A DNA stretch of 64,000 bases from the NCBI RefSeq assembly GCF_002127585.1, contig NZ_NEGZ01000017.1, positions 1 through 64,000 of the forward strand. The letters run 5' to 3'. The position numbers were made by a program, and so were the translations under genes. The stretch comes from Janthinobacterium sp. GW458P. GTDB lineage: Bacteria; Pseudomonadota; Gammaproteobacteria; Burkholderiales; Burkholderiaceae_D. The notes under the pieces were generated by a model. It was not told the DNA's origin and searched no databases. It worked only from the letters and a program-made list of their open reading frames with translations. Positions 39,341 to 49,956 of the stretch are shown in pieces (the first letter of the stretch is position 1; each line of letters begins with the position of its first letter).

Positions 39341-40762
39341 ATGAAACTGTATGAAAAGCTCGTCGGCGACATCGAGCAACTGGTCGCCCAAGGCGTGCTC
39401 TTGCCCGGCGAACGCATCCCCTCGGTGCGCCAGACCAGCCAGCAGCACAAGCTGAGCATCACCACGGTGCTGCGCGCCTACGTCAAGCTGGAAAGCATGG
39501 GCGTGATCGAAAGCCGGCCCCAGTCCGGCTACTTCGTGCGGCCCCGCGCCGGCGACGGCGAAGCTGCCGGCCTGTGCATGCAGGCCTCGCAGCCGAGCAC
39601 CGTGCCGGCCGAAGTGCACGTGAGCCGCCTGGTGCTGTCGACGCTGCGCTCGATCGGCTTGCACGAGGCGATACCGCTGGGCTCGCCCTACCCCGATCCT
39701 TCGCTGTTCCCGTGGGAACGCATCAACCAGTACGCGAGCGCCGTGGCGCGCCGCAACCGCGACTGGAGCGTGACGGACGACCTGCCGCCGGGCAACCCGC
39801 AACTGATACGCGAAATCGCCCGCCGCTACCTGGAAAACGGCCTGGCCGTCGATCCCGACGAAATCATCGTCACCGTGGGCGCCACGGAAGCGATCAACCT
39901 GTGCCTGCAAGCCGTGGCCAGGCCGGGCGACACCATCGCCGTCGAATCGCCCACCTTCTACGCCATGCTGCTGGCCGTCGAGCGGCTGGGCATGAAGGTG
40001 GTGGAGGTGTCCACCGATCCGTATGACGGCATCTGCATCGAAGCGCTGGCCGACATCATGGCCCGGCAAGCGATCGCCGCCGTCATGGTGATGCCGAACT
40101 TCCAGAATCCGCTGGGTTTCCAGATGTCGGACCAGCGCAAGCGGGCCCTGGTCCAGCTGCTGGAGCAGCACGACGTGCCCGCCATCGAAAACGGCGTCTA
40201 CAACGAACTGTATTACGGCGACGCCCACCCGTCCTCGCTCAAATCGTTCGACCGCAAGGGCCTGGTGCTGCACTGTTCCTCGTTTTCCAAGAGCCTCAGC
40301 GCCGCGCAGCGCGTGGGCTGGGCCCTGGCCGGACGCTACCGCGGCAAGGTGGAGGAACTCAAATTCCTCAACACGCTCACCACCTCCTCGTTCCCGCAGC
40401 TGGCCATCGCCGAATACCTGCAGAACGACGGCTACGAACAGCATCTGCGCCGCATCCGCAAGGCCTATGCCCAGCAGGCGCGCATCATGGCCGCCGCCGT
40501 GCAGCGCTTCTTTCCTGCCGGCACCAAAGTCTCGCAACCGCAGGGCGGCTATGTGCTGTGGGTGGAGTTGCCGGGCAAGGTCGACGCCATGCAGCTGTAC
40601 CGGCGCGCGCTGGAATGCAAGATCACCGTGGGACCGGGACGCATGTTTTCCGTCAGCCAGGCCTACAGGCATTGCATCCGCCTCAACTACAGCTATCCGT
40701 GGAACGCGGGCGTGGAACAGGCCATTATTCTGCTCGGTAAACTGATCACCGAGTTTTTATAA
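39341..40762 (+). CDS. MocR-type GntR/aminotransferase fusion regulator
   Basis: The product is 473 aa. Residues about 1-70 form a GntR winged helix (GERIPSVRQTSQQHKLSITTVLRAY). Residues about 100-470 form a type-I aminotransferase fold with the PNFQNPLG and SSFSKSLSAAQRVGW motifs; the lysine of SFSKS is the PLP ligand. Such proteins sense an amino compound or PLP through the aminotransferase domain. Its target is unknown; the converging moaA is 5 bp away and not an obvious partner. Confidence 0.92.
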   Translation: MKLYEKLVGDIEQLVAQGVLLPGERIPSVRQTSQQHKLSITTVLRAYVKLESMGVIESRPQSGYFVRPRAGDGEAAGLCMQASQPSTVPAEVHVSRLVLSTLRSIGLHEAIPLGSPYPDPSLFPWERINQYASAVARRNRDWSVTDDLPPGNPQLIREIARRYLENGLAVDPDEIIVTVGATEAINLCLQAVARPGDTIAVESPTFYAMLLAVERLGMKVVEVSTDPYDGICIEALADIMARQAIAAVMVMPNFQNPLGFQMSDQRKRALVQLLEQHDVPAIENGVYNELYYGDAHPSSLKSFDRKGLVLHCSSFSKSLSAAQRVGWALAGRYRGKVEELKFLNTLTTSSFPQLAIAEYLQNDGYEQHLRRIRKAYAQQARIMAAAVQRFFPAGTKVSQPQGGYVLWVELPGKVDAMQLYRRALECKITVGPGRMFSVSQAYRHCIRLNYSYPWNAGVEQAIILLGKLITEFL

Positions 40763-40767
40763 ACCCA

Positions 40768-41865
40768 TCATCCGCCCACCAGCGACATGCGCACGGTGCG
40801 ATACTGCTTGCGCTGGCCGCCGCCGGCCTGGGCCAGTGCGCCGCGCACTTCCGAGTAGCGGTCGCCACGGCGCTGCCAGTGCCGGCGCAACAGCGCTTCC
40901 AGCCCGCCCGGGCCTTGCGCAGGATCAAGGTGGGGCCGCAGGGCCAGGCCGTCCTGGGCGAACAGGCAGGTAAACAGCTTGCCGTCCGACGAGACGCGCA
41001 CGCGGCTGCAGTCGCCGCAGAACGGCTGCGACACGCTGGAAATGAAGCCCACTTCGCCGCCGCCGTCGAGATAACTGTAGCGGCTGGCCGTCTCGTGCGA
41101 GATCGGCTTGCCTTCGCCCAGCGCCACAAGGGGAAATGCTGCCGCGATCAGCGCGCGCGCTTCATCCGACGGGACGACATGCGTGCGCGACCAGGCGCCG
41201 ATGCCGCCCACGTCCATGAATTCGATCAGGCGCAGGATCACGCCCGTGTGGCGGAAATGGCGCGCCAGCGGCACGATCTGGCTGTCGTTGACGCCTTTCT
41301 GCACGACCATGTTGACCTTCACGGGGTGCAAACCCACGGCTTGCGCCACCGCTATGCCGTGCAGCACTTTCTCGACAGGAAAATCGACGCCGTTCATGCG
41401 CTGGAAAATGCCGTTGTCCAGGCTGTCGAGGCTGACCGTGACCCGCTCCAGGCCAGCCTCCTTCAGCGAGCGCGCCTTGGCCGCCAGCAAGCTGCCATTC
41501 GTCGTCAGCGCGATGCTCACGGCGCGCCCGTCCGGCGTGGCGAGCCGCGCCAGGCGCTCGATCAGCTGTTCCAGGTTCTTGCGCAGCAGCGGCTCGCCGC
41601 CCGTGATGCGGATTTTATCGACGCCCAGGCGCACGAAGGCGCGCGCCATCGTTTCGATCTGCTCGAAAGACAAGCGCTCGCTCGAAGGCAGGAACGGGTA
41701 ATCGCCGGGGTACAGTTCGGCCGGCATGCAATACGTGCAGCGGAAGTTGCACTGGTCGATGACGGAAATGCGCAAGTCCGTCAGGGGGCGGCCCAGCATG
41801 TCCACGCACGGTTCAATATGGTCTGGCTGCCGGAGCGCCGGCTGCGGATACAGGATGGTGTTCAT
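40768..41865 (-). CDS. moaA: GTP 3',8-cyclase MoaA, molybdenum cofactor synthesis
   Basis: The product is 365 aa from the ATG at 41865 (GAGGGG upstream). Radical-SAM cluster C39-x3-C43-x2-C46 (CNFRCTYC), the TGGEPLLRK SAM-binding loop, and a C-terminal second cluster around FCGDCSRVR and CLF. It converts GTP to 3',8-cyclo-GTP, the first step of molybdopterin synthesis. The C-terminus ends in a Gly-Gly, as MoaA proteins do. It lies near a molybdoenzyme and FdhD, so this may be the copy dedicated to that module. Confidence 0.95.
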   Translation of the reverse strand: MNTILYPQPALRQPDHIEPCVDMLGRPLTDLRISVIDQCNFRCTYCMPAELYPGDYPFLPSSERLSFEQIETMARAFVRLGVDKIRITGGEPLLRKNLEQLIERLARLATPDGRAVSIALTTNGSLLAAKARSLKEAGLERVTVSLDSLDNGIFQRMNGVDFPVEKVLHGIAVAQAVGLHPVKVNMVVQKGVNDSQIVPLARHFRHTGVILRLIEFMDVGGIGAWSRTHVVPSDEARALIAAAFPLVALGEGKPISHETASRYSYLDGGGEVGFISSVSQPFCGDCSRVRVSSDGKLFTCLFAQDGLALRPHLDPAQGPGGLEALLRRHWQRRGDRYSEVRGALAQAGGGQRKQYRTVRMSLVGG

Positions 41866-41967
41866 GGTGCTTCCCCTCGATAGGCATACGTCAGGACGTA
41901 GCATAGGGCGAATGGGGGCAGGCCAGGAGGTACAGTCCGGCGCCGGGCGATAGAGTACAGACGCGAT

Positions 41968-42243
41968 CTAATCCGCTGACGGTGCAGCAAAGACGCTGGC
42001 GCACAGCTCGGCGCCCGCCGCGCTCAAGGATGCGCTGCCGCCGCCGCTCTCCGCCGTGGCGAGTGTCACCAGTCCCGCGCTGGACAGCGCATTGAGCTGG
42101 CGCAACAAAGTGCTCATCTGTACCCCTGCCCGCTTGGCCAGCTTGGCCAGCGACCACGGTTTCCCGGGCGCTTCCTGGCGCGCCTGCCACAGCAGCGCCA
42201 GCAACGCTATCAGCGCCGCGTCGATTCCGTCTTCTTGCTCCAT
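41968..42243 (-). CDS. Small winged-helix transcriptional regulator
   Basis: The product is 91 aa, only a winged-helix domain: WSLAKLAKRAGVQMSTLLRQLNALSSAGLVTL is the helix-turn-helix core (about 30-61), followed by a wing and short helix. It resembles MarR/ArsR-type DNA-binding folds without a sensory domain. It is divergent from the molybdoenzyme operon (197 bp between starts) and is the most likely local regulator of it. Confidence 0.75.
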   Translation of the reverse strand: MEQEDGIDAALIALLALLWQARQEAPGKPWSLAKLAKRAGVQMSTLLRQLNALSSAGLVTLATAESGGGSASLSAAGAELCASVFAAPSAD

Positions 42244-42380
42244 GTTCTACCCCGTTCACGATCCGGCATGCACGCTGCACTGCCCTCGTTTGCATCATAA
42301 ATCAGGGACCTTGCCGGCGCGACGCAAATCGCCCGCGCCCCATCTGTACTCTGTTTTTTTGTCCGGAACTGTGCGCCTAC

Positions 42381-42398
42381 GGGGCGGCCCGCCGCCCC
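42381..42398 (+). promoter_or_regulatory. GC hairpin in the leader of the molybdoenzyme operon
   Basis: GGGGCGG CCCG CCGCCCC: a perfect 7-bp stem and 4-nt loop, 42 bp before the YdeP-type start codon. It may lie in the 5' untranslated region. I see no FNR-type TTGAT-N4-ATCAA box in the 197-bp region and no full molybdenum-cofactor riboswitch pattern. Confidence 0.4.
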
Positions 42399-42440
42399 TA
42401 CCATGTGATTGTCCCATCGCATATCATCAGGAGAGTCATC

Positions 42441-44753
42441 ATGAGCAAGCCAAAGTCCGACGCGCGCATCGCGCCCTACACCCATGCCGCGGCCGGCTGG
42501 GGAGCACTCAAATACGTGGCCATCAACCTGTTCAAGGAAAAAGTCAGCGCAGGCAACTACCGTTCGCTGTTCGAGCAAAACCAGCCCGACGGCTTCGACT
42601 GCCCCGGCTGCGCCTGGCCAGACCGCGAACACGCGTCCACGTTTGAATTCTGCGAAAACGGCGTCAAGGCCGTGGCCGCCGAATCGACGAGCAAGCGCGT
42701 GCGCCCCGAGTTTTTCCAGGAACACACGGTCACCGAGCTGATGGCGCAGTCGGACTATGATCTGGAACAACATGGCCGCTTGACGGATCCCATGGTGTAC
42801 GACGCGGCCAGCGACAAATACCGGGCCATTGCCTGGGACGATGCGTATGCCCTGGTGGCGCGCCACCTGCACGCGCTGGACGACCCGGACCAGGCCGCCT
42901 TCTACACGTCTGGCCGCGCCAGCAACGAAGCGGCCTTTTTGTATCAGCTGTTCGTGCGCGCCTACGGCACGAATAATTTCCCCGACTGCTCCAACCTGTG
43001 CCACGAAGCGACGAGCCGCGGCTTGCCGGAAACGGTCGGCATCGGCAAGGGCACGGTGCTGCTGGACGATTTCGAGCATGCGGACACCCTGCTGCTGTTC
43101 GGCCAGAACCCGGCCACCAACCACCCGCGCATGCTGGGCGAATTGCGCGAAGCGTCGCGCCGCGGCGCCACCATCGTCTCCATCAACCCGCTGCACGAAC
43201 GGGGCCTGGAGCGTTTCACCAGCCCGCAGCATCCGCTGGAAATGCTGACGGGCGGCAGCACGAACATCTGTTCGCTGTTCATCTGCCCGACACTGGGCGG
43301 CGACTTTGCGCTGATCAAGGCCATGGCCAAGCGCGTCGTCGAGCTCGATGACGAAGCCATCGCCCACGGCCAGGAGCGCGTGCTCGACTGCGCCTTCATC
43401 GCCGAGCACACGCGCGGCTTCGACGCCTTCGCCGCCGACCTGCGCGCGGAAAGCTGGGACTTGCTGCTGGCCGAATCGGGCGTGGCGCGCGACAAGATCG
43501 AGGAATTGACGCAGATCTATATCAAAGGCAAGGCCGTCATCGCCACCTGGGGCATGGGCGTGACGCAGCACAAGAATTCGCTGGCCACCGTGCAGATCCT
43601 GTCGAACTTGATGATGATGCGCGGCAATATCGGCAAGCGCGGCGCGGGCCTGTGCCCCGTGCGCGGCCACTCGAACGTGCAGGGCGACCGCACCATGGGC
43701 ATCGAGGAACAGCCGAGCAAGGAATTCCTCGACCGCCTGGGCCTGGTCTTCGGTTTTGAACCGCCGCGCCACCACGGCTACGACGCCGTCGGCACCATCG
43801 AAGCCATGCTGGAGAAAAAGGTCAAAGTGTTCGTCGCCCTGGGCGGCAATTTCTCGATGGCCACGCCGGACACGCCGCGCACCTGGGACGCGCTCCGGTC
43901 GTGCGACCTGACGGTCCACATCGCCACCAAGCTCAACCGCAGCCATCTGGTGCACGGCAAGGATGCGCTGATCCTGCCGACCCTGGGCCGCACGGAAATC
44001 GACGTGCAGCAAGGCGTGGCGCAAGGCGTGACGGTGGAAGACTCGATGAGCATGGTGCACATCTCGTTCGGCATGAACCAGCCCGCCTCGCCCGATCTGC
44101 GCTCGGAAATCGCCATCGTGGCCGGCATGGCGCAGGCGACCCTGGGCAGCGAGAAGATCGACTGGCTGCGCTATGCCGGCAACTATGCGCTGATCCGCGA
44201 TTCCATCGAGCAAGTATTCGACGATTTTTTCGACTACAACTTGCGCGTGGCCAAACCGGGCGGCTTCCACCTGGAAATCGCCTCGCGCGAACGCGTGTGG
44301 AAGACGGCAAGCGGCAAGGCGCAATTCCTCGTCAACGCCGTCGAGCTCGATACGCCGATCCACCGCGCTCGCCAGCAATATGGCGAACGCCTGATGGTGC
44401 TGATGACCACGCGTTCGCACGACCAGTACAACACGACGATCTACGCCATGGATGACCGCTACCGCGGCGTGTTCGGCCAGCGCAGGGTCGTTTTCATCAA
44501 CAAGGACGACCTGGCCATGCTGGGCTTTGCGGCCGGCGACTGGGTCGACCTGATCGGCGTGTGGCATGACGGCATAGCACGCCGCGCCGACCGCTTCCTG
44601 CTGGTCGAGTACGACATTCCGCGCGGCTGCATCGGCGCCTACTACCCGGAAACCAATCCGCTGGTGCCGCTCGACAGCGTGGGCCACGGTTCGCGCACGC
44701 CGACCTTCAAATCCATCCCCGTGCTGCTGGCGCCTTCGGCCGCCCTCGGCTGA
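42441..44753 (+). CDS. FdhF/YdeP-family molybdopterin oxidoreductase
   Basis: The product is 770 aa from the ATG at 42441 (AGGAGAGTCATC before it). Cys54, Cys57 and Cys71 (CPGC and FCENG) are the visible part of an N-terminal iron-sulfur site; only three cysteines are clear. Cys187 in CSNLCHEATS aligns with the Cys/Sec Mo ligand of formate dehydrogenase, followed by His188. The C-terminal domain has VLMTTRSHDQYNTTIY, the dinucleotide-binding stretch. YdeP in Escherichia coli aids acid resistance; its substrate is unsettled. No Tat signal, so cytoplasmic. First gene of the run with cydAB. Confidence 0.9.
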   Translation: MSKPKSDARIAPYTHAAAGWGALKYVAINLFKEKVSAGNYRSLFEQNQPDGFDCPGCAWPDREHASTFEFCENGVKAVAAESTSKRVRPEFFQEHTVTELMAQSDYDLEQHGRLTDPMVYDAASDKYRAIAWDDAYALVARHLHALDDPDQAAFYTSGRASNEAAFLYQLFVRAYGTNNFPDCSNLCHEATSRGLPETVGIGKGTVLLDDFEHADTLLLFGQNPATNHPRMLGELREASRRGATIVSINPLHERGLERFTSPQHPLEMLTGGSTNICSLFICPTLGGDFALIKAMAKRVVELDDEAIAHGQERVLDCAFIAEHTRGFDAFAADLRAESWDLLLAESGVARDKIEELTQIYIKGKAVIATWGMGVTQHKNSLATVQILSNLMMMRGNIGKRGAGLCPVRGHSNVQGDRTMGIEEQPSKEFLDRLGLVFGFEPPRHHGYDAVGTIEAMLEKKVKVFVALGGNFSMATPDTPRTWDALRSCDLTVHIATKLNRSHLVHGKDALILPTLGRTEIDVQQGVAQGVTVEDSMSMVHISFGMNQPASPDLRSEIAIVAGMAQATLGSEKIDWLRYAGNYALIRDSIEQVFDDFFDYNLRVAKPGGFHLEIASRERVWKTASGKAQFLVNAVELDTPIHRARQQYGERLMVLMTTRSHDQYNTTIYAMDDRYRGVFGQRRVVFINKDDLAMLGFAAGDWVDLIGVWHDGIARRADRFLLVEYDIPRGCIGAYYPETNPLVPLDSVGHGSRTPTFKSIPVLLAPSAALG

Positions 44754-44766
44754 TCAGGAGCACCCC

Positions 44767-46146
44767 ATGTTCGGTTTCGATACCCTGGACCTGTCGCGCG
44801 CGCAATTTGCGATGACGGCCATCTTCCACATCCTGTGGCCCATCTTGACGATCAGCCTGTCGCTGTTCCTGTTCGTCGTCGAGGCGCTGTGGCTGCGCAC
44901 CAGCGACCCCGTCTACTACCGCCACGCGCGCTTCTGGAGCAAGCTGCTGGTGCTCAACTTTGCCGTCGGCGTCGTCAGCGGCATTCCCCTGGAATTCCAG
45001 TTCGGCACCAACTGGGCGCCGTTTTCCCACCATTCCGGCCAGTTCATCGGCAACATCCTCGGTTTCGAGGGCGCCATGGCCTTCATGCTGGAAGCGGGCT
45101 TCATCGGCGTCATGATGTTCGGCTGGGGCCGCGTACCGAAGGGCGTGCACCTGTTTGCCACCGGCATGGTGGCGCTGGGGTCGAGCATTTCCTCGTTCTG
45201 GATCATGGTCGCCAATTCCTGGATGCAGACGCCGGCCGGCGTGCGCGTGCTTGACGGCAAGATCATCGTCACCGATTACGTGGCCGCCATCTTCAATCCC
45301 GACATGGCCTGGGCCGTGGGCCATATGTGGGTGGCCGCCGTGGAAACGGGCTTGATCGTCATCGCGGGCATTTCCGCCTGGTATATGTTCAAGCGCCGCG
45401 AACCGGCCTTCTTCGCCCGCTCGTTCAAGCTGGCGCTGATGCTGCTGCTGGTCATCGCACCGTTGCAAGTGTGGCTGGGCGACTCGAGCGGCGTCGACGT
45501 CTTCAAGACCCAGCCCGCCAAGGGCGCGGCCATCGAAGGCCACTGGCACACGAACCGCGATGGCGAAGGGGCCGCCTGGTCCCTGCTGGCCTGGCCCAAC
45601 CAGGCGGAGCAGAAGAACGACTGGTCGCTCGAAGTGCCCGGCATGCTCAGCGTGATCGCCACGCATAGCGCCACTGGCAAGATCACGGGCCTGGCCGACA
45701 TCGCCCGCGCAGACCAGCCGCCCATGCTGCCGCTGCTGTACTACGCGTTTCGCGCCATGGCCGGCATCGGCATGTGGTTCGTGCTGCTGGCGTTCTGGAC
45801 CTTCGTGGCCTGGCGCAAGGCGGGCGCACGGGTGGACGCGTTTTTGCGCCAGCGCAAGCTGCTGCTGGCCTGGGTGCTGACGATACCGCTGCCCTACATC
45901 GCCGTCGAGTGCGGCTGGATCGTGCGCGAAGTGGGACGCCAGCCATGGGTCGTGTACGGCTTGCTGCGCACGCGCGACGCCGTCTCCGACGTGGCGGCCC
46001 ATGCCGTGGCCGGCAGCATGCTGATGTTCTATGTGTTTTACATCGTGCTGTTTGTCACCTTCTTTGTGTTTGCCAGGAAATGGCTGCAGCAAGGCCCGGA
46101 CGTGGCGCTGCCGCTGCCGGACACCGCCCATGCCGCGGGGTATTGA
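44767..46146 (+). CDS. cydA: Cytochrome bd-type quinol oxidase subunit I (cyanide-insensitive type)
   Basis: The product is 459 aa with about nine helices. Heme ligands and proton-path residues are at the expected places: His21, His186, and Glu101 and Glu109 in GFEGAMAFMLEAGF. The motif SSFWIMVANSWMQTPAG is conserved. The Q-loop region after about 250 is short, as in CIO-type oxidases, which oxidise quinol and reduce O2 without pumping. It starts 13 bp after the molybdoenzyme gene with AGGAGCACCCC, so the two are cotranscribed. Confidence 0.93.
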   Translation: MFGFDTLDLSRAQFAMTAIFHILWPILTISLSLFLFVVEALWLRTSDPVYYRHARFWSKLLVLNFAVGVVSGIPLEFQFGTNWAPFSHHSGQFIGNILGFEGAMAFMLEAGFIGVMMFGWGRVPKGVHLFATGMVALGSSISSFWIMVANSWMQTPAGVRVLDGKIIVTDYVAAIFNPDMAWAVGHMWVAAVETGLIVIAGISAWYMFKRREPAFFARSFKLALMLLLVIAPLQVWLGDSSGVDVFKTQPAKGAAIEGHWHTNRDGEGAAWSLLAWPNQAEQKNDWSLEVPGMLSVIATHSATGKITGLADIARADQPPMLPLLYYAFRAMAGIGMWFVLLAFWTFVAWRKAGARVDAFLRQRKLLLAWVLTIPLPYIAVECGWIVREVGRQPWVVYGLLRTRDAVSDVAAHAVAGSMLMFYVFYIVLFVTFFVFARKWLQQGPDVALPLPDTAHAAGY

Positions 46147-46176
46147 GATGCGCCCCCATCAATCAAGGAGTAAGTA

Positions 46177-47157
46177 ATGGATATCAATTCGCACGCCATG
46201 CTGGGCAACGCCTGGTTCGGCTTGATCGGCCTGATGCTGGTGTTTTACGTGGTCACGGACGGCTTCGACCTGGGCGTGGGCATCCTCAGCCTGTTCACGC
46301 GCCGCGAGCAGGAACGCAACCTGATCTTCCAGTCGATCGCCCACGTGTGGGACGCCAATGAAACCTGGCTGGTGGTGGTGGGCGGCGCCCTGTTCGGCGC
46401 GTTTCCCGGCGCCTACGCCACCCTGCTGGAAGGGCTGTACATCCCCATCATGCTGCTGATTGCCAGCCTGATCATGCGCGGCGCCTCGATCGAGTTCCGC
46501 CATGCCGCCGGCAACAAGCGCCTGTGGGACCTGGTCTTCGGCGCGGGCAGCCTGCTGGCCGCCGTGGCGCAGGGCGTGGTGCTGGGCAAGGTCATCACGG
46601 GCTTGCAGCCGGGCCCGCTGAGTGCGGTTTTCACGGCCTGCACGGCGCTGGGCGTGGTGGCCGGGTACTGCCTGCTGGGCAGCACTTACCTGATCAAGAA
46701 GACGGGCGGCAGGCTGGAAGCGGCTGCGCGCCGCTACGCGACCACCAGCGTGCTGGCGACGGTCGCGGCCGCCATCGTGCTGTCGGCCGGCACCATGGTC
46801 TTCAGCGCCATCGGCCACGACCGCTGGGCGCAGCCGGGCGTGTTCGGCGTGCTGCTGGCCCTGGCCGCCGTCGCCGCCAGCGCTTTTATCTACATCCTGT
46901 GGGCCGTGCATGTGAACGGCGTGCGCGGACCGTTCCGCGGCGCCATCGTGCTGTTCCTGGCCTCGTTCGCGGGCCTGGCCATCAGCTTCTTCCCCGACCT
47001 GGTGCCGGGCAAGCTGAGCATCGCGGCGGCCGCATCAGACGAGCCGACCCTGATCTTCATGCTGATCGGCATGGGTTCCATGCTGCCGATCATGGTCGGC
47101 TACAACCTGTTCCAATACTACGTCTTCGAGGGCAAAGTCGTGCCCCGCAATCATTGA
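46177..47157 (+). CDS. cydB: Cytochrome bd-type quinol oxidase subunit II
   Basis: The product is 326 aa with eight helices and the subunit II pattern YVVTDGFDLGVGIL near residue 30 and HVWDANETWLVVVGG near 60. It pairs with the CydA encoded 30 bp upstream. AAGGAGTAAGTA is a strong ribosome site. No small CydX-type ORF is evident between it and the next gene, which follows 13 bp later. Confidence 0.93.
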   Translation: MDINSHAMLGNAWFGLIGLMLVFYVVTDGFDLGVGILSLFTRREQERNLIFQSIAHVWDANETWLVVVGGALFGAFPGAYATLLEGLYIPIMLLIASLIMRGASIEFRHAAGNKRLWDLVFGAGSLLAAVAQGVVLGKVITGLQPGPLSAVFTACTALGVVAGYCLLGSTYLIKKTGGRLEAAARRYATTSVLATVAAAIVLSAGTMVFSAIGHDRWAQPGVFGVLLALAAVAASAFIYILWAVHVNGVRGPFRGAIVLFLASFAGLAISFFPDLVPGKLSIAAAASDEPTLIFMLIGMGSMLPIMVGYNLFQYYVFEGKVVPRNH

Positions 47158-47170
47158 TCGGCATCAGATC

Positions 47171-48091
47171 ATGATCATTCGGCCTACCACCAACTGGTTC
47201 CGCATGCTGTTCGTCTGGAACGGCTCGGTGCTGCAAGCCATCATCCCGCAACTGCTGCTGATGCTGGTCGTCAGTTCGCTGGCCTTGCTGACGGACGGCC
47301 GCATCTTCGGCGTCAAAATTCCGCTCGATACGGCGCCGTTTCCCATGGTCGGCATCAGCCTGGCGATCTTCCTCGGCTTTCGCAACAACGCCAGCTATGC
47401 GCGCTTCGTCGAGGCGCGGCATATCTGGGGGCAATTGCTGATCGCCGCGCGGGCCCTCGCTTCGCAGGCGCTCACGTATTTGCCGCAGGAAACAAGCGGC
47501 CTGGACCACCAGTTGCTGCTGCGCCGCCTGATCGCCTTCGTCTACGCGCTCAAGCACCAGCTGCGCCAGACGGACCCGCTGGAAGACCTGGCGCGCTACC
47601 TGCCGGCCGGCGACGTGCAGCGCTTGCAGGGCATTAACTTCAAGCCCGTCGCCGTGCTCCATTCGGTCCGGGCCATGCTGCACGAGGCCGTGCAGCGCCA
47701 GCCGGGCCAGACGCAGCTGCTGTGGATGCTCGACACCCAGCTCAACGACCTGGCCGCCACGGTGGCAGGCTGCGAGCGCATCAAGAACACGCCGATTCCG
47801 TATCCGTACGGCGTGCTGGTGCACCGCACCGTCTATATGTACTGCTTCTTGCTGCCGCTGGGCCTGGTGGACGCCATCGGCGTGGCCACGCCCCTCATTT
47901 CCGTCTTCGTTGCCTACCCCCTGTTCGCGCTGGAAGCCATCGCGCAGCAGATCGCCGAACCGTTCGGCCTGGCCCCCAGCTGCCTGGCCCTGAACGCCAT
48001 GACGCGGGAAACGGAACGCTCGCTGCTGGAATTGAACGGCGAGCCGCTGCCGCCCTCGATACGGCCCTGCCCCCGCTATCAGATCGATTAA
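47171..48091 (+). CDS. Bestrophin-family (UPF0187) anion channel
   Basis: The product is 306 aa. It opens with the family start MIIRPTTNWFRMLFVW. The motifs TAPFPMVGISLAIFLGFRNNASYARFVEAR (about 56-85) and PYPYGVLVHRTVYMY (about 216-230) are typical of bacterial bestrophins, pentameric channels for anions or small cations. Its place inside a respiratory molybdoenzyme operon is unusual; moving an anionic substrate such as formate or balancing charge are possible roles (inference). Confidence 0.9.
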   Translation: MIIRPTTNWFRMLFVWNGSVLQAIIPQLLLMLVVSSLALLTDGRIFGVKIPLDTAPFPMVGISLAIFLGFRNNASYARFVEARHIWGQLLIAARALASQALTYLPQETSGLDHQLLLRRLIAFVYALKHQLRQTDPLEDLARYLPAGDVQRLQGINFKPVAVLHSVRAMLHEAVQRQPGQTQLLWMLDTQLNDLAATVAGCERIKNTPIPYPYGVLVHRTVYMYCFLLPLGLVDAIGVATPLISVFVAYPLFALEAIAQQIAEPFGLAPSCLALNAMTRETERSLLELNGEPLPPSIRPCPRYQID

Positions 48092-48103
48092 CCGGAGAAC
48101 AGC

Positions 48104-48937
48104 ATGGACTTTGACACGACGACCATCGAACGCGACGGCTACCTGGACGTTCCCATGGTGCGCCACCAGGCGAGCGTGGCCACGGCGGGCCGCGACATGG
48201 TGGCCGAGGAGTATCCCGTGGCCCTCGTCTACAACGGCATCGCCCACGCCGTGATGATGGCCACGCCGCGCGACCTCGAGGAATTCGCCGTCGGCTTTAC
48301 CCTGACCGAAGGCATCGTCGGCAGCGTGCGCGACATCTACGACCTCGACGTGTGCTGCGGCGCGGACAGCGCGGAAGTGCGGCTGACCATCGCGCAGCCG
48401 GATTTGATCAAGCTCAAGGCCCGCCGCCGCGCGCTGACGGGGCGCACGGGCTGCGGCGTGTGCGGCATCGAAAGCCTGGCCCTGCTGGACCTGGTGCCGG
48501 AAAAGATCACGCGGCCGCTGCCGCCGCTGGTCGCCAGCAGCGCCATCCTCGGACGCGCCGCGCGCGAACTGCTGCCCTGGCAGGAGCTGATGCACAAGAC
48601 GGGCGGCGTGCACGCGGCCGCCTGGTGCACGGCCGAGGGCGCGGTGGTAAAAGTGTTCGAGAACGTGGGCCGGCATAACGGCCTCGATAAACTGATCGGC
48701 TACCTGGCGCTGCACCGCATCGCCATGCACGACGGCTTCGTCTTCCTGTCGAGCCGCGCCAGCTATGAACTGGTGCGCAAGTCGGCGCGCATGCATATCG
48801 GCCTCGTCGCCACCATCTCGGCGCCCACCTCGCTGGCCATCCGCATCGCGCGCCAGGCCGGCATGCAGCTGGCCAGCTTTTGCCGCCGCGACGGCTTTGT
48901 CGACTACACGGCCGACGCCGTGCCGCCGGCAGGATGA
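48104..48937 (+). CDS. fdhD: Formate dehydrogenase accessory sulfurtransferase FdhD
   Basis: The product is 277 aa. The sulfur-carrying pair Cys117-Gly-Val-Cys120 lies in RTGCGVCGIE, and the TEGIVGSVRDI and ENVGRHNGLDKLIG motifs are present. FdhD hands sulfur from IscS to the Mo-bis-MGD cofactor of formate dehydrogenase-like enzymes. Its presence here says that the operon's YdeP-type enzyme needs a sulfurated cofactor. CGGAGAACAGC precedes the ATG; the gap to the bestrophin gene is 12 bp. Confidence 0.95.
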   Translation: MDFDTTTIERDGYLDVPMVRHQASVATAGRDMVAEEYPVALVYNGIAHAVMMATPRDLEEFAVGFTLTEGIVGSVRDIYDLDVCCGADSAEVRLTIAQPDLIKLKARRRALTGRTGCGVCGIESLALLDLVPEKITRPLPPLVASSAILGRAARELLPWQELMHKTGGVHAAAWCTAEGAVVKVFENVGRHNGLDKLIGYLALHRIAMHDGFVFLSSRASYELVRKSARMHIGLVATISAPTSLAIRIARQAGMQLASFCRRDGFVDYTADAVPPAG

Positions 48938-48984: not shown

Positions 48985-49956
48985 ATGTTCAAACTGACTT
49001 TTCTCGGCACGTCATCCGGCGTGCCCACGCGCCACCGCAACGTCACGTCGCTGGCCCTGCAAACGACGCACAACCGCGACTGGTGGATGATCGATTGCGG
49101 CGAAGCGACGCAGCACCGGCTGCAGCGCCTGCCCCTGTCCGTGCACGACCTGGTGGGCATCTGCATCAGCCACGTGCATGGCGACCACAGCTATGGCCTG
49201 CCGGGCCTGCTGGCCAGCGCTTCGATGACGGGGCGCAAGAAGCCCCTGCTGCTGATCGCCCCGGCCGCCATCAAGGCGTGGATCGACGCGACCCTGCTGC
49301 ACACGGAACTGTTCCTGACGTATCCGCTGATCCACATCGACGTGGACAGCGCGCAAGTAGTCCACCAGGAAGCGGGCTTGACCGTCTCGCGCCATGCGCT
49401 GTCGCACCGCGCGCCGAGCGTCGGTTATCGTTTCGCGCTGGAAACGAGCAGATGGAAGCTGGACAAGGCGGCACTGCAGGCGGCGGGCGTGCCGCCCGGC
49501 CCCGCCTGGGGCTTATTGCAGGCGGGCCAGGATGCGCTGCTCGACGACGGCACGGTCTTGCGCGCCGCCGCTTTCCGCCAGACGGAAACGCAACGCGCCG
49601 CCGTGGTCATCGGCGGCGACAACGACACGCCGGCGTTGCTGACGGATGCCTGCACGGACGCGCAGCTGCTCGTGCATGAAGCCACCTACACGGAAGCCAT
49701 GCTGCAAAAGGTGGGGCCCGGCCCCACGCACAGCTCCGTGCAGCGCGTGGCGCAATTCGCCGAATCCGTCCGCCTGCCGCATTTGATCCTCACCCACTTC
49801 AGCGCCCGCTATCACAATGCGGAAGGCATGGCCGAGCTGGAAGCGGAAGCCCGGCTGCATTACTCGGGCGAACTGTTCCTGGCGCGCGATTTCGACAGCT
49901 ATGAACTCGACGCGGCGGGCGTGCTGAGCAAACCCGAGACGCCGCGCAGCAAATGA
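48985..49956 (+). CDS. rnz: Ribonuclease Z, metallo-beta-lactamase fold
   Basis: The product is 323 aa of the short RNase Z type. The zinc motif is HVHGDH (residues 63-68), with DCGEATQHRL before it, SHRAPSVGYRF in the middle, and the late GPTHSS and LTHFSARY motifs. It trims tRNA 3' trailers. The ATG at 48985 fits the family N-terminus; there is no strong ribosome site, and coupling to fdhD 47 bp upstream is possible. Functionally unrelated to the respiratory genes. Confidence 0.9.
   Translation: MFKLTFLGTSSGVPTRHRNVTSLALQTTHNRDWWMIDCGEATQHRLQRLPLSVHDLVGICISHVHGDHSYGLPGLLASASMTGRKKPLLLIAPAAIKAWIDATLLHTELFLTYPLIHIDVDSAQVVHQEAGLTVSRHALSHRAPSVGYRFALETSRWKLDKAALQAAGVPPGPAWGLLQAGQDALLDDGTVLRAAAFRQTETQRAAVVIGGDNDTPALLTDACTDAQLLVHEATYTEAMLQKVGPGPTHSSVQRVAQFAESVRLPHLILTHFSARYHNAEGMAELEAEARLHYSGELFLARDFDSYELDAAGVLSKPETPRSK

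Follow-up and report, generated by a model that had tools for sequence, protein, structure and literature searches.

In Janthinobacterium sp. GW458P, a bacterium of soil or water, a gene for a YdeP-type molybdoenzyme stands directly before those of a cytochrome bd, a bestrophin channel and FdhD, which raises the question of what such an enzyme oxidizes and how its electrons could reach oxygen. We examined this locus within a window of 64,000 nucleotides (positions 1-64,000 of contig NZ_NEGZ01000017.1; positions given without a locus label are those of the window), for which an earlier note, made from the letters alone, had proposed a self-contained respiratory unit, perhaps for formate. The gene set, the active-site residues of the enzyme, an operator tied to a MocR gene and the recurrence of the gene linkage are observed, and the reading that we favor, at a probability of roughly 0.6, is that of a MocR-controlled module for formate oxidation or tolerance with its own terminal oxidase.

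Gene layout and transcription unit

The features of the locus are as follows.

39341-40762, + strand: gene of a MocR-type regulator with GntR and aminotransferase-like domains (PF00392 and PF00155) and the PLP-Lys motif SFSK
40768-41904, - strand: moaA, GTP 3',8-cyclase of Moco synthesis (TIGR02666, 344.8 bits; cut-off 284)
41931-41960, - strand: operator copy before moaA, CTGTACTCTATCGCCCGGCGCCGGACTGTA, one of two genome-wide matches
41968-42243, - strand: gene of a 91-aa acidic winged-helix protein, a homologue of PDB 2OBP
42344-42373, + strand: operator before the ydeP operon, CTGTACTCTGTTTTTTTGTCCGGAACTGTG, with the fixed gap of 18
42441-44753, + strand: ydeP/fdh4A-type gene of a predicted cytoplasmic molybdenum formate dehydrogenase, FdhF/YdeP family (TIGR01701, 940 bits)
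44767-46146, + strand: cydA, cytochrome bd subunit I (PF01654, 526 bits)
46177-47157, + strand: cydB, cytochrome bd subunit II (PF02322, 271 bits; TIGR00203 over its cut-off)
47171-48091, + strand: gene of a bestrophin channel (Bestrophin_2) of KpBest type (PF25539, 322 bits)
48104-48937, + strand: fdhD, Moco sulfurtransferase for formate dehydrogenase (TIGR00129, 185 bits; cut-off 140.9)

Profile searches and the coordinates bear out the gene content, the order and the 12-30-bp spacing first described for this region: ydeP, cydA, cydB, the bestrophin gene and fdhD run head to tail, all intact, with gaps of 13, 30, 13 and 12 bp, and the divergent gene of the 91-aa DNA-binding protein and moaA adjoin them as had been said. 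The unit is larger than was noted, with the MocR regulator gene, which lies beyond the coordinates first given, and moaA also members. From the spacing, the one operator at the operon head and a promoter-like site found only past fdhD, we infer that ydeP to fdhD form one transcript. That site, the sole promoter-like match of the region, lies between fdhD and an RNase Z gene that starts at 48985 and is probably separate from the ydeP unit. MoaA, with a likely start at 41865, keeps CxxxCxxC at C52 and the C-terminal GG, and FdhD adds the CGVCG (CxxC) motif of the sulfurtransferase to its TIGR00129 score.

In many Janthinobacterium genomes fdhD (or bestrophin) is separated from RNase Z by an amidohydrolase-like gene (L039:14778-16277 and L046:11424-12917), which is absent from the window. 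Other members of the genus (L026-L033) carry a second YdeP paralogue, ∼73% identical and accompanied in several of them by a convergent fdhD; the genome of the window has only one YdeP.

Active site and probable substrate of the YdeP enzyme

The TIGR01701 score of the enzyme exceeds the cut-off of 582.15 bits, which places it in the FdhF/YdeP family. When it is aligned with solved formate dehydrogenase α subunits, C187-H188 and R408 fall on the catalytic Cys-His pair and the formate-binding arginine, and all three residues are invariant in 207 of 207 YdeP homologues, in keeping with the initial choice of Cys-187 as the candidate Mo ligand. The Fe-S site reads C54-x2-C57-x3-D61-x9-C71, with D61 at the usual third-Cys position. 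That only three Fe-S cysteines are visible, as had been remarked, is a family-wide trait among YdeP proteins, with C54, C57 and C71 invariant, and YdeP does not have the classical N-terminal four-Cys [4Fe-4S] motif of Mo/W-bis-PGD formate dehydrogenases. Because the third-Cys position is Asp or Glu in 205 of the 207 homologues, a carboxylate-ligated Fe-S cluster can fairly be inferred.

Judging from characterized relatives, the substrate would be formate. Formate induces the pair of YdeP-family PP_0256 and fdhD in Pseudomonas putida, which loses its formate tolerance when the pair is deleted and regains it with a plasmid copy (PMC10308882). This pair (PP_0256-PP_0257) resembles the locus in combining a YdeP-family formate dehydrogenase with fdhD, and moaA and the bd-type cioAB also respond to formate in P. 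putida, cioAB being among the most significantly responsive genes (PMC10308882). The two systems differ: cioAB is encoded elsewhere in P. putida, and neither a bestrophin nor a MocR operator or a winged-helix gene is mentioned in the paper for PP_0256-PP_0257. In Methylobacterium, Fdh4A supports formate oxidation (PMC3720670); the M. extorquens protein is of the YdeP family, like the window enzyme, with a value of 48% against YdeP of E. coli (PMC3720670), and the small gene next to fdh4A, that of Fdh4B, is functionally coupled to it (cited in PMC10308882).

Another substrate, or a reductive reaction with chlorate, another oxyanion or an acid-stress substrate, would leave the bd oxidase and the channel to serve in acid or redox stress. 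Such a role would accord with the non-canonical Fe-S site, unlike that of classical formate dehydrogenases, with the acid resistance for which E. coli YdeP is known (cited in PMC10308882) and with a milk metagenome study in which ydeP abundance was loosely linked to chlorate reduction (PMC13094775). We nevertheless consider it quite improbable, given that the full catalytic trio of formate dehydrogenases is conserved, that FdhD is encoded in the operon, that formate-type transporters are present at sister loci and that relatives have formate phenotypes.

In the formate module that we favor, YdeP would be a cytoplasmic Fdh4A-type Mo-bis-PGD formate dehydrogenase, for which co-regulated MoaA would raise the cofactor supply and FdhD would sulfurate the cofactor. 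It would oxidize formate to CO2 with a net use of cytoplasmic protons, and this consumption would explain the link of YdeP to acid stress.

The same genome also contains a 1037-aa molybdoenzyme frame with an in-frame TGA (G000:C116:7092-8108), perhaps a selenocysteine formate dehydrogenase of the FdoG type.

A MocR-associated operator and the small winged-helix protein

The operator upstream of ydeP, CTGTRYYC-N18-TGTR, is present in 77 of 81 related loci against 17 of 7525 control windows, and its gap is always 18, though 15-19 was permitted in the search. A stricter form of it, scanned with up to one mismatch through the 6.28-Mb genome, has exactly two matches, before ydeP (42344-42373) and before moaA (41931-41960, minus strand), against none for a reversed-pattern control. 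Across 147 loci the operator accompanies a nearby MocR gene in 81 of 83 cases and occurs in 4 of the 64 loci without one (p = 1e-33, a value that is overstated since the loci are related). Where the genes are split, it is distributed with them: L149 has it separately before bestrophin/mocR, moaA and ydeP-cydAB, and in the Telluria locus L084 copies lie near mocR/ydeP, near fdhD and near the genes of a formate/nitrite transporter and the winged-helix protein. Published MocR motifs are direct repeats containing TGT groups at constant spacing (PMC5320631). The operator has this form and lies, as predicted for a MocR regulon, with an adjacent MocR gene, so that MocR is the probable regulator of the ydeP unit. 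The main text of that comparative study makes no mention of formate, fdh or bestrophin; its supplementary tables may hold a prior mention.

The 91-aa protein matches PDB 2OBP (E = 3e-15; Foldseek 1.4e-5) and has a MarR-like DNA-binding fold, which, together with its divergent position adjacent to ydeP in Janthinobacterium, would suit a local regulator acting in place of MocR and without a role in the enzyme. We hold this as a tentative option, short of even odds. The operator follows the MocR gene and not the 91-aa gene: it is present in 7 of 7 loci that have MocR and lack the winged-helix gene, and absent in 5 of 5 where the reverse holds. These discordant loci span several genera. In other Burkholderiales members of the family follow ydeP closely and in the same orientation, a 376-aa ORF downstream of ydeP in L224 has a winged-helix N terminus fused to an FdhD C terminus, and the protein is acidic (pI 4.9). 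As an operator-binding regulator it is disfavored, and it is probably not the main regulator; by analogy with ForE of Bacillus subtilis, it may be a small partner subunit of YdeP.

Alphaproteobacteria, including MtdA-bearing methylotrophs, have another small family directly after ydeP; in two MtdA-bearing genomes this is a 101-aa ORF that follows ydeP by 15-18 bp, with no cydAB or bestrophin there. We claim no homology of the 91-aa protein to the 101-aa Fdh4B-like family, for which hhalign gives a probability of only 9% and a weak motif likeness. Winged-helix-like ORFs of 90-106 aa, a second family without a clear Pfam assignment and probably of Fdh4B type, stand shortly downstream of ydeP in L240, L244, L234 and L229, and also in L236, L242, L194, L227 and L248.

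Recurrence, the bestrophin and a proposed route to oxygen

Conservation of the gene order had been named as a check on the original proposal, and the same genes do stand together in other genera and classes, so the arrangement is not unique to this strain. Full or partial sets are found in Janthinobacterium, Herbaspirillum, Duganella, Caballeronia and a Burkholderiales MAG, and Cupriavidus has fdhD-bestrophin divergent from ydeP. YdeP proteins occur in 101 of 399 sampled Pseudomonadota genomes, about a quarter, and in this phylum sample ydeP adjoins cydAB in one gammaproteobacterial locus (L199, in the order bestrophin-cydAB-ydeP) and two alphaproteobacterial ones (L232 and L238), with the L232 genes co-directional and about 30 bp or less apart. 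This amounts to three neighboring pairs in 56 loci against ∼0.25 expected by a rough estimate. In an enterobacterial genus (L266-L283) most of the 20 species have ydeP directly preceded by the bestrophin gene, and at three loci cydAB adjoins ydeP in place of it. Among the ydeP-linked CydA proteins, those from beta-, gamma- and alphaproteobacteria are 40-54% identical between groups and belong to three unrelated lineages, which rules out one ancestral ydeP-cydAB operon; the pairing therefore arose several times. Some close CydA relatives, in G155, G194 and G322, are not encoded beside ydeP, which counts against the favored reading.

A chance neighborhood of separate stress genes might be read from the variable order and from the presence or absence of single genes from locus to locus. 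It is made very improbable by the return of the genes, in altered order, in three classes or more, with ydeP-cydAB pairs at the excess over expectation given above, and by a shared operator unique to two sites in the genome. Partial sets assembled separately in other groups point to a common job in burning or surviving formate.

The proposal that the unit is self-contained fares less well. Two sister Janthinobacterium (L158/L046 and L159) and two Duganella (L091 and L103) have the bestrophin gene directly on ydeP and no cydAB, with overlapping stop and start codons in both junctions read. The two Janthinobacterium loci also miss fdhD and keep ydeP-bestrophin and both operators; the bd oxidase is thus not obligatory and the unit not fully self-contained. 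Outside the cluster, the genome of the window has two further cydA genes and a second fdhD (contig 75).

Alignment with E. coli bd-I and bd-II assigns the CydA of the window to the short Q-loop type and shows that heme ligands H21, H186 and M331, quinol-site residues K252 and E257 and GRQPW at 390-394 are kept, which with the PF02322 match of CydB identifies a cytochrome bd quinol oxidase. The quinol site of cytochrome bd is on the periplasmic side, and electrons must therefore go via quinone; direct transfer from YdeP, which has no export signal, to the CydA hemes is unlikely. We saw no Tat-type N terminus in YdeP either, and a profile search of the nine proteins encoded at the locus returned no quinone-linking subunit of the FdhB/FdhI type, so the missing step between YdeP and quinone to which the earlier note had pointed is real. 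FdnGHI and FdoGHI share the formate-to-quinone-to-O2 logic, but their Fe-S subunit H and cytochrome b subunit I are missing from the unit, and their Tat-type N terminus from YdeP.

A model for the missing step is ForCE of B. subtilis, a cytoplasmic formate dehydrogenase that, with a small essential partner, reduces menaquinone without a membrane subunit, ForC needing ForE for quinone reduction (PMC8808070). ForC differs in its five Fe-S clusters, its CQ-RGH motif and its partner, a DUF1641 protein, whereas YdeP has one Fe-S site and the C-H...R arrangement; its motif reads C-H...RGH, and none of the nine region proteins matches DUF1641.

It is possible, if on balance rather unlikely, that enzyme and oxidase are co-regulated and uncoupled, with YdeP electrons passing to a soluble acceptor and cytochrome bd acting as a formate-, cyanide- or acid-insensitive bypass for other dehydrogenases. 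The P. putida authors assume NAD+ as the formate dehydrogenase acceptor (PMC10308882). The strong formate response of cioAB from its separate location, the operation of ydeP without linked cydAB in most genomes and an operon that encodes no quinone-linking subunit would all suit this arrangement, but a direct electron sink would account at least equally well for the tight co-directional packing of ydeP and cydAB (13 bp here and the short spacing in L232) and for the recurrent association of ydeP with unrelated cydAB.

In the coupled formate module, YdeP electrons would enter the quinone pool, perhaps with the winged-helix protein as a small partner in the manner of ForE, and would be passed on to O2 by the short-Q-loop cytochrome bd made from the same putative transcript. 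Formate is an inhibitor of cytochrome c oxidase (cited in PMC5238407), a reason for formate oxidation to be served by a bd oxidase; however, the observation cited for Campylobacter that formate may inhibit both terminal oxidases (PMC5238407) weakens the argument for a formate-proof oxidase. The support for tying a formate pathway to O2 reduction, as the earlier note had ventured, comes from the catalytic trio, the formate phenotypes of relatives, the operator with its tie to MocR, the formate-type transporters beside ydeP and the recurring ydeP-cydAB linkage. With bd paired repeatedly to ydeP and a single operator shared by the unit, a YdeP electron route that runs from formate through quinone to bd becomes testable.

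The bestrophin of the window aligns with KpBest (4wd7) at E = 3.5e-71, and its pore neck, I62/I66/F70, is identical to that of KpBest, which with its PF25539 score makes it a KpBest-type channel; this IIF neck is not the IFF neck of the eukaryotic anion-type bestrophins. Because KpBest is a Na+ channel (PMC8496536), the anion passage suggested at first is doubtful and should not be assumed. KpBest itself (Klebsiella, PDB 4WD7), of all bacterial bestrophins the one best known in structure, is of the same Bestrophin_2 family, and the window protein is a distant homologue of it from another class of bacteria. In the enterobacterial genus above, a protein that matches KpBest with 100% identity over 298 aa is encoded directly upstream of ydeP (L280:4123-5016), so that its own gene also lies beside ydeP. 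Among ydeP loci without bestrophin, three have a formate/nitrite transporter nearby and four have an MFS protein that resembles oxalate/formate antiporters (these four score under the curated cut-offs and are candidates only as to substrate), and at the ydeP loci examined neither transporter ever occurs together with bestrophin. The channel would carry an ion flux accompanying formate entry or oxidation, and the place of the KpBest gene next to ydeP, with the renewed joining of bestrophin and cydAB to ydeP in another class, suggests formate, bicarbonate or, during formate oxidation, a counter-ion as candidates.

A more specific proposal is a compact formate:O2 chain without a membrane dehydrogenase subunit, in which Asp/Glu-ligated YdeP and its winged-helix partner would reduce quinone for cytochrome bd, accompanied by bestrophin ion flux. 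Taken as a whole this chain is unlikely; if true, it would give bacterial bestrophins, KpBest included, their first physiological context.

A ydeP-cydAB-bestrophin unit was not found described in the literature searched. The locus joins a probable YdeP/Fdh4A formate module to a cytochrome bd of its own and a bestrophin under a dedicated MocR switch. Among the new findings three are the strongest: an operator with two sites, the fact that ydeP has been joined to unrelated cydAB more than once, and the position of the KpBest gene beside ydeP. One-carbon biotechnology seeks aerobic strains that tolerate formate, and the ydeP cluster would be a natural module for this purpose. Immediately after cydB or bestrophin, the clusters of two relatives have a gene of Moco biosynthesis, moeA in one and a MoCF_biosynth gene of the moaB/mogA type in the other (L116:12932-14137 and L091:11233-11712).
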